From: an uncultured Lentisphaerota bacterium
GTDB taxonomy: Bacteria > Verrucomicrobiota > Kiritimatiellia > CAIQIC01
Direction of reading: 5' to 3'
DNA: 33,956 bases
Assembly (NCBI GenBank): GCA_903889245.1
Contig: CAISWQ010000026.1
Location: 1-33,956 of the forward strand
This document shows positions 212 through 31,783 of this stretch, one piece after another; position 1 is the stretch's first letter, and each line of letters begins with the position of its first letter. The notes under the pieces were generated by a model. The model was not told where the DNA came from. It saw nothing but the letters and a program-made list of their open reading frames with translations, and searched no databases. The position numbers and the translations under genes were made by a program.

Positions 212-226
212 TTCCAAGCCTTGGAA
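212..226. repeat. Dispersed palindrome, copy 1 (TTCCAAGCCTTGGAA)
   Basis: This is a perfect 15-base copy of the window's dispersed palindrome (odd centre base) with TTCCAAG and CTTGGAA arms. It lies 74 bases upstream of the glycoside hydrolase start at 301. A half-site (CCTTGGAAAAA) lies just before it at about 187. Confidence 0.85.
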
Positions 227-3377: not shown

Positions 3378-3453
3378 TGGTGGAGCGAGCGGGGTTCGAA
3401 CCCGCGACCCCCACGTTGCGAACGTGGTGCTCTCCCAACTGAGCTACCGCCCC
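3378..3453 (-). tRNA. tRNA-Ala (anticodon CGC)
   Basis: The reverse strand folds as a complete 76-base cloverleaf. The acceptor arm is GGGGCGG with TCGCTCC (two G-U pairs), the D arm GCTC/GAGC, the anticodon stem CCACG/CGTGG with loop TTCGCAA, and the T arm GCGGG/CCCGC with loop TTCGAAC. The anticodon CGC reads GCG alanine codons, which are abundant in the neighbouring genes. Discriminator A and the 3' CCA (3378-3380) are encoded in the DNA. Confidence 0.96.
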
Positions 3454-5110: not shown

Positions 5111-5191
5111 TTTCCAGGGCCTGGAAAAAAGCCGGATATTCCCCCCAAGGTTTGGAAGGGCCTGGGTACCGAGCTTTCCATCCTGGAAAAA
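5111..5191. repeat. Dispersed palindrome, copies 2-4 (one good, two degenerate)
   Basis: Copy 2 is TTTCCAGGGCCTGGAAA at 5111-5127, right after the epmA stop. Copy 3 (CCAAGGTTTGGAAGG, about 5146-5160) and copy 4 (TTTCCATCCTGGAAA, about 5176-5190) are decayed. Apart from these, the 273-base gap 5108-5380 shows no recognisable gene or RNA. Confidence 0.7.
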
Positions 5192-7902: not shown

Positions 7903-7951
7903 CTTCCCAACCTTGGAAAAAACACCCGGTTCTTTTCCAGGCTTTGGAAAA
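7903..7951. repeat. Dispersed palindrome, copies 5-6
   Basis: Copy 5 (TTCCCAACCTTGGAAAA, 7904-7920) is imperfect. Copy 6 (TTTTCCAGGCTTTGGAAAA, 7933-7951) has one mismatch in the core. Both lie between paralogue B and the protease start at 7980. The TTG inside copy 6 creates a false upstream start for the protease. Confidence 0.8.
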
Positions 7952-10228: not shown

Positions 10229-10266
10229 CCGCTCAACCGCAAACCGCCGGCTGCAAAATGATCTCC

Positions 10267-10322
10267 TGTAGGCCGGACCTCTGACCCGGCGGCGGAACGC
10301 CGGCTCGGAGAACCGGCCTACA
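10267..10322. repeat. Long-range inverted repeat, GC-rich
   Basis: TGTAGGCCGG (10267-10276) pairs exactly with CCGGCCTACA (10313-10322). The sequence between contains further CCGGCG/CGCCGG pairing, so the RNA or single strand could fold into a branched hairpin. It looks like a REP-type extragenic element. No ORF of note lies in 10122-10562. Confidence 0.55.
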
Positions 10323-10363: not shown

Positions 10364-10503
10364 ATCCAAGGCCTGGAAAATTTCCCCGTTATTTTTCCAA
10401 GGCTCGGAAAAAATCCGGCGGAAACTTCCAAGCCTTGAAAAAATTTCTGCGGATTTTTCCAAGGCCTGGGAAAACCGGTGCTCCGTTTTTCCAAGGCTTG
10501 GAA
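10364..10503. repeat. Dispersed palindrome, copies 7-11 (five-copy cluster)
   Basis: Five copies occur within 140 bases. They are at 10365-10377 (TCCAAGGCCTGGA), 10392-10413 (core CCAAGGCTCGG), 10426-10443 (TTCCAAGCCTTGAAAAAA), 10454-10474 (core CCAAGGCCTGGG) and 10486-10503 (TTTTTCCAAGGCTTGGAA). Each differs at one or two positions, and most mismatches fall in one arm. This is the densest array in the window. It lies between the 3' ends of two convergent genes. Confidence 0.9.
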
Positions 10504-10562: not shown

Positions 10563-12020
10563 TTACTTGTCGGCTTTATCCACGGCGCCGTCGCCGGCGT
10601 CGGGCGGCATCTTGTCGAGATCGCCTTTGCGCAGCTCGGCGAGCAGCGCCTGCAACTCCTGCACCTTCTGCGGCTCGGCGGCGGCGAGGTCCTTCGTCTC
10701 GTAGGGATCGGCGGTGACGTTATAAAGCTCCACGCTGGCGGCGGCCGCGGCTTTTTTCTTCTTCGCGTTGCCGCCCTTGCGGGCGATCAGCTTCCAGCCC
10801 TCGCGCAGCACGATGGCGCCGCTGGCGTGCGGGATATAGATGGTACGCGGCTCGGGCTTGGTGCTGGCGCCGGTCAGGAGCGGCCAGAGGTCGAGGCCAT
10901 CGAACTTCAGGTCGGCCGGTGGCGTCCAGCCGGCGAGCTTGGTGAGCGTCGGCATCCAGTCGGCGGCGTGCATGGGCGCGGCGACCTTGCGCGGCGCGAG
11001 GCGGCCGGGCCAGTTGGCGAACGCGCTGACGCGGACGCCGCCCTCGTAGAGCGTGTTCTTGTGGCCGCGCAATGGCAGGTTGCTGGAGAGCAGCGGCGAG
11101 TCCTTCACTTTGCCCACATAGGGATTTTTCCCGCCCGGCAGGCCGCCGTTGTCGGAGGTGAAGACGATCAGCGTATTCTCGCGCTGGCCGGTGGCTTCGA
11201 GCGCGGCGATGAACTCGCCGATCTTGGCGTCGAGCTGCGTGACGAACGCGCCCATGCGCAGGAGCGAGTCCTGCATCACGGGGTCGTCGTGGAATTTCAC
11301 GCCGGCGTAGCGGCGCTTGTACTGCTCCGGCGCGTCCACCGGGATGTGGACGGCGAAGAACGGGACGTAGATGAACCACGGCGCCGGCTTCGCGCGGATC
11401 CACTTGAACGCCTCCTGCGCGACGAGCTCGGTGGCGTTGCCTTCCTCGGCGAGGAACTTACCGTCGCGATGCCACGTGTCCTCGTAGGGGCCGGGGCGAT
11501 ACTTGTGCGTCCACGGATCCACCGCGCCGCAGAGCGCGCCGTAGCTGTGGTCGAAGCCGTAGTGGTTCGGGCCCCACTCGGCCTTGCCGCCGAGGTGCCA
11601 CTTGCCGCTGATGTGCGTCGTGTAGCCGCACTGCTTGAGCGCGGCCGGCAGGATCGGCGTGCCCGGCGGAAACGCGCGCGAGTTCGAGGGCATCAGTACG
11701 TGCGGGCCGAAGCGGCTCGTCCAGCGGCCGCTCATCAGCGCCGTGCGCGTCGGCGTGCAGACCGGCTGCACATAGTGGCGGTCGAGTTCCACGCCCTCCT
11801 TGACGAGGCGGTCGAGGTTCGGCGTCAGGAACTTGCTGCCGTGCCAGCCGACGTCGGCCCAACCGAGGTCGTCGGCGACGAGCAACAGGATGTTCGGTTT
11901 GCCTTTTTCCAAGGCTTGGAAACCGGAGGTGGCGCTTTTTCCAAGGCTTGGAAAAAACGCCGCGCCGAGCGCGCCCAGACCGGCCAGTTTCAGGAAGTCG
12001 CGCCGCGAGGTCGTCTGCAT
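10563..12020 (-). CDS. Tat-exported sulfatase with two palindromes inside its coding sequence
   Basis: A 485-residue family S1 (alkaline-phosphatase superfamily) sulfatase. It starts MQTTSRRDFLKLAGLGALGA, a twin-arginine signal, so it is exported folded. Residues 22-40 (FFPSLGK ... FQALEKG) are encoded by two copies of the dispersed palindrome. The sulfatase core starts KPNILLLVADDLGW (metal Asp pair). Cys88 in CTPTR is the site converted to formylglycine; SGKWHLG and FTSDNGG supply further active-site and metal ligands. The start ATG at 12020 has AAAGGA at 6-base spacing; upstream in-frame ATGs are less suitable. An internal KKKK run (GGNAKKKK) is unusual. It is divergent from the next sulfatase. 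The closest named activity is arylsulfatase-like; the substrate is unknown. Confidence 0.92.
   Translation of the reverse strand: MQTTSRRDFLKLAGLGALGAAFFPSLGKSATSGFQALEKGKPNILLLVADDLGWADVGWHGSKFLTPNLDRLVKEGVELDRHYVQPVCTPTRTALMSGRWTSRFGPHVLMPSNSRAFPPGTPILPAALKQCGYTTHISGKWHLGGKAEWGPNHYGFDHSYGALCGAVDPWTHKYRPGPYEDTWHRDGKFLAEEGNATELVAQEAFKWIRAKPAPWFIYVPFFAVHIPVDAPEQYKRRYAGVKFHDDPVMQDSLLRMGAFVTQLDAKIGEFIAALEATGQRENTLIVFTSDNGGLPGGKNPYVGKVKDSPLLSSNLPLRGHKNTLYEGGVRVSAFANWPGRLAPRKVAAPMHAADWMPTLTKLAGWTPPADLKFDGLDLWPLLTGASTKPEPRTIYIPHASGAIVLREGWKLIARKGGNAKKKKAAAAASVELYNVTADPYETKDLAAAEPQKVQELQALLAELRKGDLDKMPPDAGDGAVDKADK
11904..11956. repeat. Dispersed palindrome, copies 12-13, translated in frame
   Basis: Copies at 11904-11922 and 11936-11956, both with the perfect core TTCCAAGGCTTGGAA, lie inside the sulfatase gene. 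In the minus-strand frame the outer copy reads FFPSLGK and the inner reads FQALEKG. They are read in two different frames relative to the repeat. They fall between the Tat hydrophobic region and the first strand of the enzyme, a place tolerant of insertions. Confidence 0.92.
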
Positions 12021-17337: not shown

Positions 17338-17388
17338 TTTTTTCCAAGGCTTGGAAAAATGCGCCGCGTTTCTTCCAAGGCTTGGAAA
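17338..17388. repeat. Dispersed palindrome, copies 14-15, abutting a start codon
   Basis: Copy 14 (17338-17359) and copy 15 (17373-17388) both have the perfect core TTCCAAGGCTTGGAA. Copy 15 ends two bases before the ATG at 17391. Its right arm (TTGGAAA) therefore occupies the ribosome-binding position of the FAD oxidoreductase gene. Confidence 0.92.
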
Positions 17389-19640: not shown

Positions 19641-19660
19641 CCAGTCGCGGCGGGATGGCT

Positions 19661-19742
19661 TTCCAAGGCTTGGAAAAACTACGCGTAAATTTTCCAAGGC
19701 TTGGAAAAAAGGCTGGCGAAAGTTTCCAATCCTTGGAAAAAA
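19661..19742. repeat. Dispersed palindrome, copies 16-18
   Basis: Three copies lie in the 113-base gap before the sulfatase at 19754. They are at 19661-19677 and 19690-19710, both with perfect core, and 19723-19742 (TTTCCAATCCTTGGAAAAAA). The last A-run merges into the AAGGAG ribosome site at 19741-19746. The frame of the sulfatase stays open through all three, which would read FQGLEK, FPRLGK and FQSLEK. Confidence 0.92.
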
Positions 19743-27114: not shown

Positions 27115-27162
27115 TTTCCAATGGCTGGAAAAATATGTGGTGAGCGCTTCCAATGCTTGGAA
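27115..27162. repeat. Dispersed palindrome, copies 20-21 (TTCCAAT variants)
   Basis: TTTCCAATGGCTGGAAAAA (27115-27133) and TTCCAATGCTTGGAA (27148-27162) carry a T in place of the first G of the core. They lie 33 to 80 bases before the sulfatase start at 27195. Confidence 0.82.
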
Positions 27163-27194
27163 GCCTCGCTAACCCGGCGGAGAAAGGAAACATC

Positions 27195-31703: not shown

Positions 31704-31783
31704 TTTCCAAGCCTTGGAAAATCCCGTGGAATTTTTTCCAAGGCCTGGAAAAAGCGGCGCGAAAATTTCCAAGGCTTGGAAAA
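31704..31783. repeat. Dispersed palindrome, copies 22-24
   Basis: Three copies lie in the 158-base gap before the sulfatase at 31801. They are at 31704-31721 (TTTCCAAGCCTTGGAAAA), 31732-31753 (core CCAAGGCCTGG) and 31766-31783 (TTTCCAAGGCTTGGAAAA). The last copy ends 4 bases before the AAAGGA ribosome site. Confidence 0.92.

Follow-up and report, generated by a model that had tools for sequence, protein, structure and literature searches.

Two palindromes within a Tat-type sulfatase gene as part of a putative chromosome-wide array system in an uncultured Lentisphaerota bacterium

Introduction

The described elements closest to the one treated here are the GTAG/CGTC REPs and BIMEs, which share with it short, high-copy palindromes that lie between genes, cluster and sometimes fall within genes, and which have been reported in Verrucomicrobia (PMC3733652). 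An end tag defines the GTAG/CGTC REPs, and the GTAG type also comes with RAYT (Y1) transposases (PMC3733652). In contrast, our arrays carry no GTAG/CGTC end tag in a profile of 433 sites and have no link to Y1 transposase counts (none in genomes G041 and G054, 21 in G044). They also lack compensatory stem variation, a comparison whose power is lowered by the way sites were selected, and they combine helical phasing at 31/32 and 22 bp with even chromosomal spacing and an in-place origin within genes.

The uptake sequences of Pasteurellaceae and Neisseriaceae are reported to arise from sequence already present, through point mutations in non-coding DNA and in coding DNA free of constraint (PMC1939737). 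Our element resembles them in gain by point mutation, seen here in AroB and QueA, whereas uptake sequences are neither palindromic nor set in phased arrays (PMC1939737). HIP1 of cyanobacteria is likewise a very abundant short palindrome within one bacterial lineage; it is an 8-mer tied to methyltransferases (PMC4390886), unlike the present element, which is 17 bp long, arrayed, for the most part intergenic and variable in its centre between genera. The HIP1-type scatter over coding and non-coding DNA is absent here, array density being about 36-fold lower in coding DNA. Because the centre bases differ between genera, the palindrome is unlikely to contain a site recognised by an orphan methyltransferase.

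The sites of Noc (NBS) and MatP (matS) are examples of palindromes that are scattered over the chromosome, bind dimers and act at chromosome level; they have far fewer copies than our element and are not known to form three-turn arrays. Our arrays resemble them as dispersed palindromes. We found the element unreported in the open-access papers to which our literature search was limited.

The window analysed here is the whole of a 33,956-nucleotide stretch (contig CAISWQ010000026.1), contig 26 of a 5.26 Mb assembly. An earlier note on it had described two palindrome copies translated inside a sulfatase gene and had argued that the element is mobile.

Results

Two palindromes in the leader of a sulfatase

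The sulfatase read from 12020 to 10563 has the translation MQTTSRRDFLKLAGLGALGAAFFPSLGKSATSGFQALEKGKPNILLLVADD, with both palindromes in its first 40 codons. The 15-mer TTCCAAGGCTTGGAA lies at 11907-11921 and 11939-11953, 32 bases from start to start, and at both places it belongs to an exact copy of the 17-mer TTTCCAAGGCTTGGAAA (Table 1). The Tat signal scores 20.5 bits with TIGR01409 (cut-off 16.7); the Pfam Tat model gives 16.1, under its cut-off of 22.7. The sulfatase domain PF00884 starts at residue 42, after both copies. Thus the description of two copies, translated in two frames within the first 40 codons of a Tat-type sulfatase, is borne out. The observation that the 15-mer has no stop codon in any of the six frames is also correct by reading, in either orientation, though this is common for a 15-mer. 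A start codon downstream of the repeats, which had been named as a possible objection, is unlikely, since from the repeats to the sulfatase core this gene has neither an ATG nor a GTG, and the orthologues keep the Tat signal too.

Table 1. Features of the window.
Feature	Position	Strand	Remarks
Sulfatase gene	10563..12020	(-)	PF00884 from residue 42; N-terminal Tat signal TIGR01409
Palindrome copy 1 (N-terminal)	11938..11954	(-)	gene sense TTTCCAAGCCTTGGAAA; FPSLGK, phase 0
15-bp spacer between copies	11923..11937	(-)	gene sense AAGCGCCACCTCCGG; polar 'AA' end first; codes KSATSG
Palindrome copy 2	11906..11922	(-)	FQALEK, phase 2; 32 bp from copy 1
Single exact 15-mer	212..226		upstream neighbour partly matched (inverted repeat I22)
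Degenerate two-site array	5112..5157		2 + 3 mismatches; spacing 31
Degenerate two-site array	7904..7949		2 mismatches each; spacing 31
Five-site intergenic array, same element	10364..10503		spacing 31/31/31/32
Two-site array between genes	17341..17388		spacing 31
Three-site array	19660..19739		spacing 31/32; ends 14 nt before sulfatase start (gene 19754)
Two-site array	27115..27163		spacing 32; 31 nt before start of gene 27195
Three-site array	31704..31782		spacing 31/31; upstream of sulfatase starting 31801

Sulfatase-like genes number at least seven between 10563 and 33216 of the window, and several of them are closely preceded by arrays. Beside the five-site array, at 10262-10322, stands a longer imperfect palindrome, TGTAGGCCGG...CCGGCCTACA, which is REP-like of the GTAG type; sequence like GTAGGCCGCGTGACC adjoins other arrays as well, at C65:19417 and C65:25561. 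A tRNA gene on the minus strand (3381-3453) is the only Rfam match in the window, and the palindrome arrays have none.

Number, spacing and placement of arrays

The 5.26 Mb genome (G000) holds 691 exact copies of the 17-mer (343 + 348), whereas the reversed control has none, so its abundance is not due to chance. Palindromes stand in arrays of 2-6 with the consensus TTTCCAAGnCTTGGAAA, one array every ~4-5 kb. Array statistics come from 825 kb of G000, in which 433 sites fall into 175 arrays, 25 single sites counted among them. Neighbouring sites are 31 bp (n = 153) or 32 bp (n = 104) apart and almost never otherwise; these distances correspond to about three helical turns, and the 22 bp met in relatives to about two.

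Arrays are mainly intergenic, with 1.0-1.5 per kb between genes against 0.037 per kb in coding DNA, densities that depend on heuristic gene calls. They are about equally frequent in tandem, convergent and divergent gaps and are thus indifferent to the direction of transcription. Along the contigs their spacing is more even (CV 0.63) than that of placements among the same intergenic gaps (0.83), and none of 2,000 such placements was as even as observed.

Array ends are polar: the 15-bp spacer that begins with AA, giving the 32-bp spacing, is last in 44 of 46 arrays, and this polarity showed no relation to gene direction. Spacers are alike beyond shuffled controls, yet their sequence conservation is weak. 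Among the 433 sites, half-sites vary independently, compensatory double changes being at expectation with no excess; because sites were chosen by mismatch count, some double changes were removed and the test lost power. The element therefore has the two marks of phased dimeric sites, independent half-sites and spacing by whole helical turns. Each site is flanked by a T-run on its 5' side and by an A-run, beyond which composition is near background. An intrinsic terminator was considered and rejected, given the arrays in divergent gaps and the 5' position of the T-run.

Within genes, 11 of 26 arrays lie in the first ~100 nt (P about 1e-6). This agrees with the signal and linker location pointed out for the focal sulfatase, and such crowding is consistent with a region in which the protein is under little constraint. 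The 32-bp spacing is favoured in genes (19 of 26 pairs, against 85 of 231 intergenic pairs; P = 0.0005). Several neighbouring genes at about 31,400-44,000 of contig C65 in G000 have N-termini apparently made of repeat DNA (RRVGDPAY...RPRDLTRRLFPSLGTLALLFFQALE), in which an array would make up the hydrophobic signal region.

Origin of the copies inside genes

The focal sulfatase has orthologues in the congeneric genomes G003 and G002 (82% identity), which align without gaps over both repeats and have three more residues beyond them; in G003 the two copies are degenerate (5 + 4 mismatches), 32 bp apart and in the same register. A second sulfatase lies at C16:88421. Its G002 orthologue retains the two palindromes, with 1 and 0 mismatches, around a spacer that has diverged; its G003 orthologue has a degenerate first palindrome and, in place of the second, a different repetitive linker. 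The pair at C65:140788 is retained in G001.

AroB of G000, G001, G002 and G003 bears palindromes 32 bp apart at two codon positions that all four share; those of G002 and G003 are more degenerate. The G001 protein is as long as AroB is throughout the class, which means that there was no insertion. At the first of the two positions, AroB of G007 and G042, genomes of other families, has a palindrome variant of its own. Around the second copy of G000 AroB, the alignment to solved homologues has a 7-residue gap on their side, but orthologues put the extra residues after the copy. In QueA the site is ungapped against solved homologues.

The ungapped orthologues, the length of AroB and the variants of other families at the same codons show that the copies in genes arose by substitution on compatible codons. 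Judged from these alignments, the in-gene sites are products of point mutation, not of insertion. The earlier note had allowed for an element inserted into, or grown within, coding DNA; the ungapped focal gene, AroB and QueA favour the second half of that statement and speak against the first. Nor did the orthologues reveal the exact insertion that the note anticipated: those at 82% identity have the linker without intact palindromes, the outcome it had named as telling against it. The gene at C13:28136 has three sites, and the sequence around them also resembles other repeat DNA. Some copying of array blocks between loci may have occurred.

Leaders of exported sulfatases

FPxLGK followed by FQxLEK, in the same phases, recurs in at least seven exported sulfatases in the 825 kb and in one on C12, with more in G001 and G002. 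Tat sulfatases lacking the pair have linkers that are, by reading, only 4-6 residues shorter. In an exploratory comparison, two pairs of sulfatase linkers have 14 of 15 spacer bases in common, with cores 60-65% alike, and so some local copying is possible. Swapping of whole leaders was rejected: leader DNA is equally alike in array and non-array sulfatases, so that copying is suggested by the 49-bp array block alone, in these two pairs. Five sulfatases of G003 and G002 (L246, L250, L022, L024, L031) have the same linker with a different repetitive coding module, LDSAGSTALTTGRGRPLDGARGRPN. Repeat DNA of various kinds may thus come to lie in the leader linker.

Distribution among relatives

Of 388 genomes from the phylum, 48 have the two-site array pattern when its centres are left free, 47 of them in the same class and one outside; the reversed control occurs in none of the 388. 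The half-sites TTTCCA/TGGAAA are conserved, and the centre differs between genera while the array pattern is unchanged. Spacings in one family (f4) are 22 (17), 30 (9) and 31 bp (24), the 22-bp spacing being at array ends. Exact 15-mers number 883, 435, 328 and 101 within one genus. In genus g53, G213 and G268 are rich in arrays and G093 and G155 are free of them. Orthologous intergenic arrays are of varying length and copy number, and an array present in G000 may be missing from a relative. An ab initio search of one array-poor genome (G037) found no replacement motif. In the other, G031, the usual arrays are missing and a rare variant, GTCCAAnnnTTGGAC, turned up, seven times in 172 kb of contig C3, with one pair 32 bp apart; the site may have diverged to this form.

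Discussion

The reading that we favour, with a probability of roughly 0.55, is that the two copies in the sulfatase gene are one array of a chromosome-wide, helically phased platform for a putative dimeric, probably nucleoid-organising protein. Each palindrome would be bound by a dimer of one putative DNA-binding protein, adjacent dimers, all facing one side of the helix, would be in contact, and the complexes along the arrays would organise the nucleoid. Selection would act on the DNA site rather than on the peptide, and arrays would settle in the signal c-region and linker of exported sulfatases because these can tolerate FPxLGK/FQxLEK. Whole-turn spacing, independent half-sites, upkeep despite diverged spacers and even spacing argue for a dimeric protein that would bind neighbouring sites on one face of the DNA and for a role at the level of the chromosome. 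We count against this reading the quick change in 15-mer number within one genus, the differences among orthologous intergenic arrays and their absence from some relatives, the polar array ends and the likeness of spacers beyond shuffles, the last two of which block copying would also give. Even spacing could alternatively result if a mobile element showed target immunity.

The arrays could instead be mobile repeats of the REP, BIME or REPIN kind, block-copied by a transposase, with the sulfatase copies as tolerated insertions. Such an origin would suit composite arrays whose polarity ignores gene direction, the similar spacers of some arrays and of the two linker pairs, and the relatives that lack an array of G000. 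We nevertheless think it improbable: the gene copies examined (focal gene, AroB, QueA) show no insertion, G041 and G054 have arrays but no Y1 transposases, G000 has only weak ones and array-free G044 has 21, and for two arrays tested the best whole-genome matches are only 80-87% alike. Phasing by two or three turns, even chromosomal spacing and units without a GTAG/CGTC tag point the same way. The preference for mobility over a regulatory site, expressed before these comparisons, is therefore not upheld, as Y1 transposase counts are unrelated to array counts and the arrays are phased at 31/32 or 22 bp and evenly spaced.

A DNA-uptake or conversion-bias signal would accumulate by molecular drive through point mutation and would have no chromosomal function. 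The gains in AroB and QueA are of the kind reported for uptake sequences (PMC1939737). However, known uptake sequences are not palindromic and are often in genes (PMC1939737), whereas the present sites form phased, special-ended, mostly intergenic arrays, and we hold this explanation to be distinctly unlikely.

As perfect inverted repeats, many of them near gene starts or ends, the palindromes might act as RNA hairpins, whether terminators, processing sites or mRNA stabilisers. Neither compensatory covariation nor an Rfam match accompanies them, G-U against A-C in the transcribed sense stands at 61 to 44 (P = 0.12), divergent gaps are equally populated, and the T-run is 5' of the palindrome and not 3', so that a role in RNA seems very doubtful. 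Selection might act on the peptide instead, FPxLGK-x6-FQxLEK being a motif of Tat/Sec leaders or linkers in exported sulfatases and the palindrome a by-product. This has in its favour that at least eight sulfatases of G000, and others of G001 and G002, share the peptide pair and its phases, but it is hardly credible when the same DNA arrays are mainly intergenic, occur in AroB and QueA in other phases, and are missing from some sulfatases with a Tat leader.

Returning to the binding platform, it is tempting to extend it to one Verrucomicrobiota class, probably Kiritimatiellia. There, as a tentative proposal that we would not put at even odds, a scaffold of ~1,000 arrays with defined ends, one every 4-5 kb here, might let a putative protein polymerise and fold the nucleoid; the centre would drift, helical spacing would stay fixed, and the pressure would rewrite housekeeping codons.

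If the platform reading is right, the element is a previously unreported site system, one that would organise the chromosome in a large environmental bacterial class. Its sequence rules (half-site, two- or three-turn spacing, polar ends and even distribution) would make the protein findable by pull-down. The sites would also rewrite protein in place, sulfatase leaders and an AroB helix having palindrome-dictated residues, and FPxLGK/FQxLEK peptides would be recognisable as a DNA effect rather than as a protein motif.
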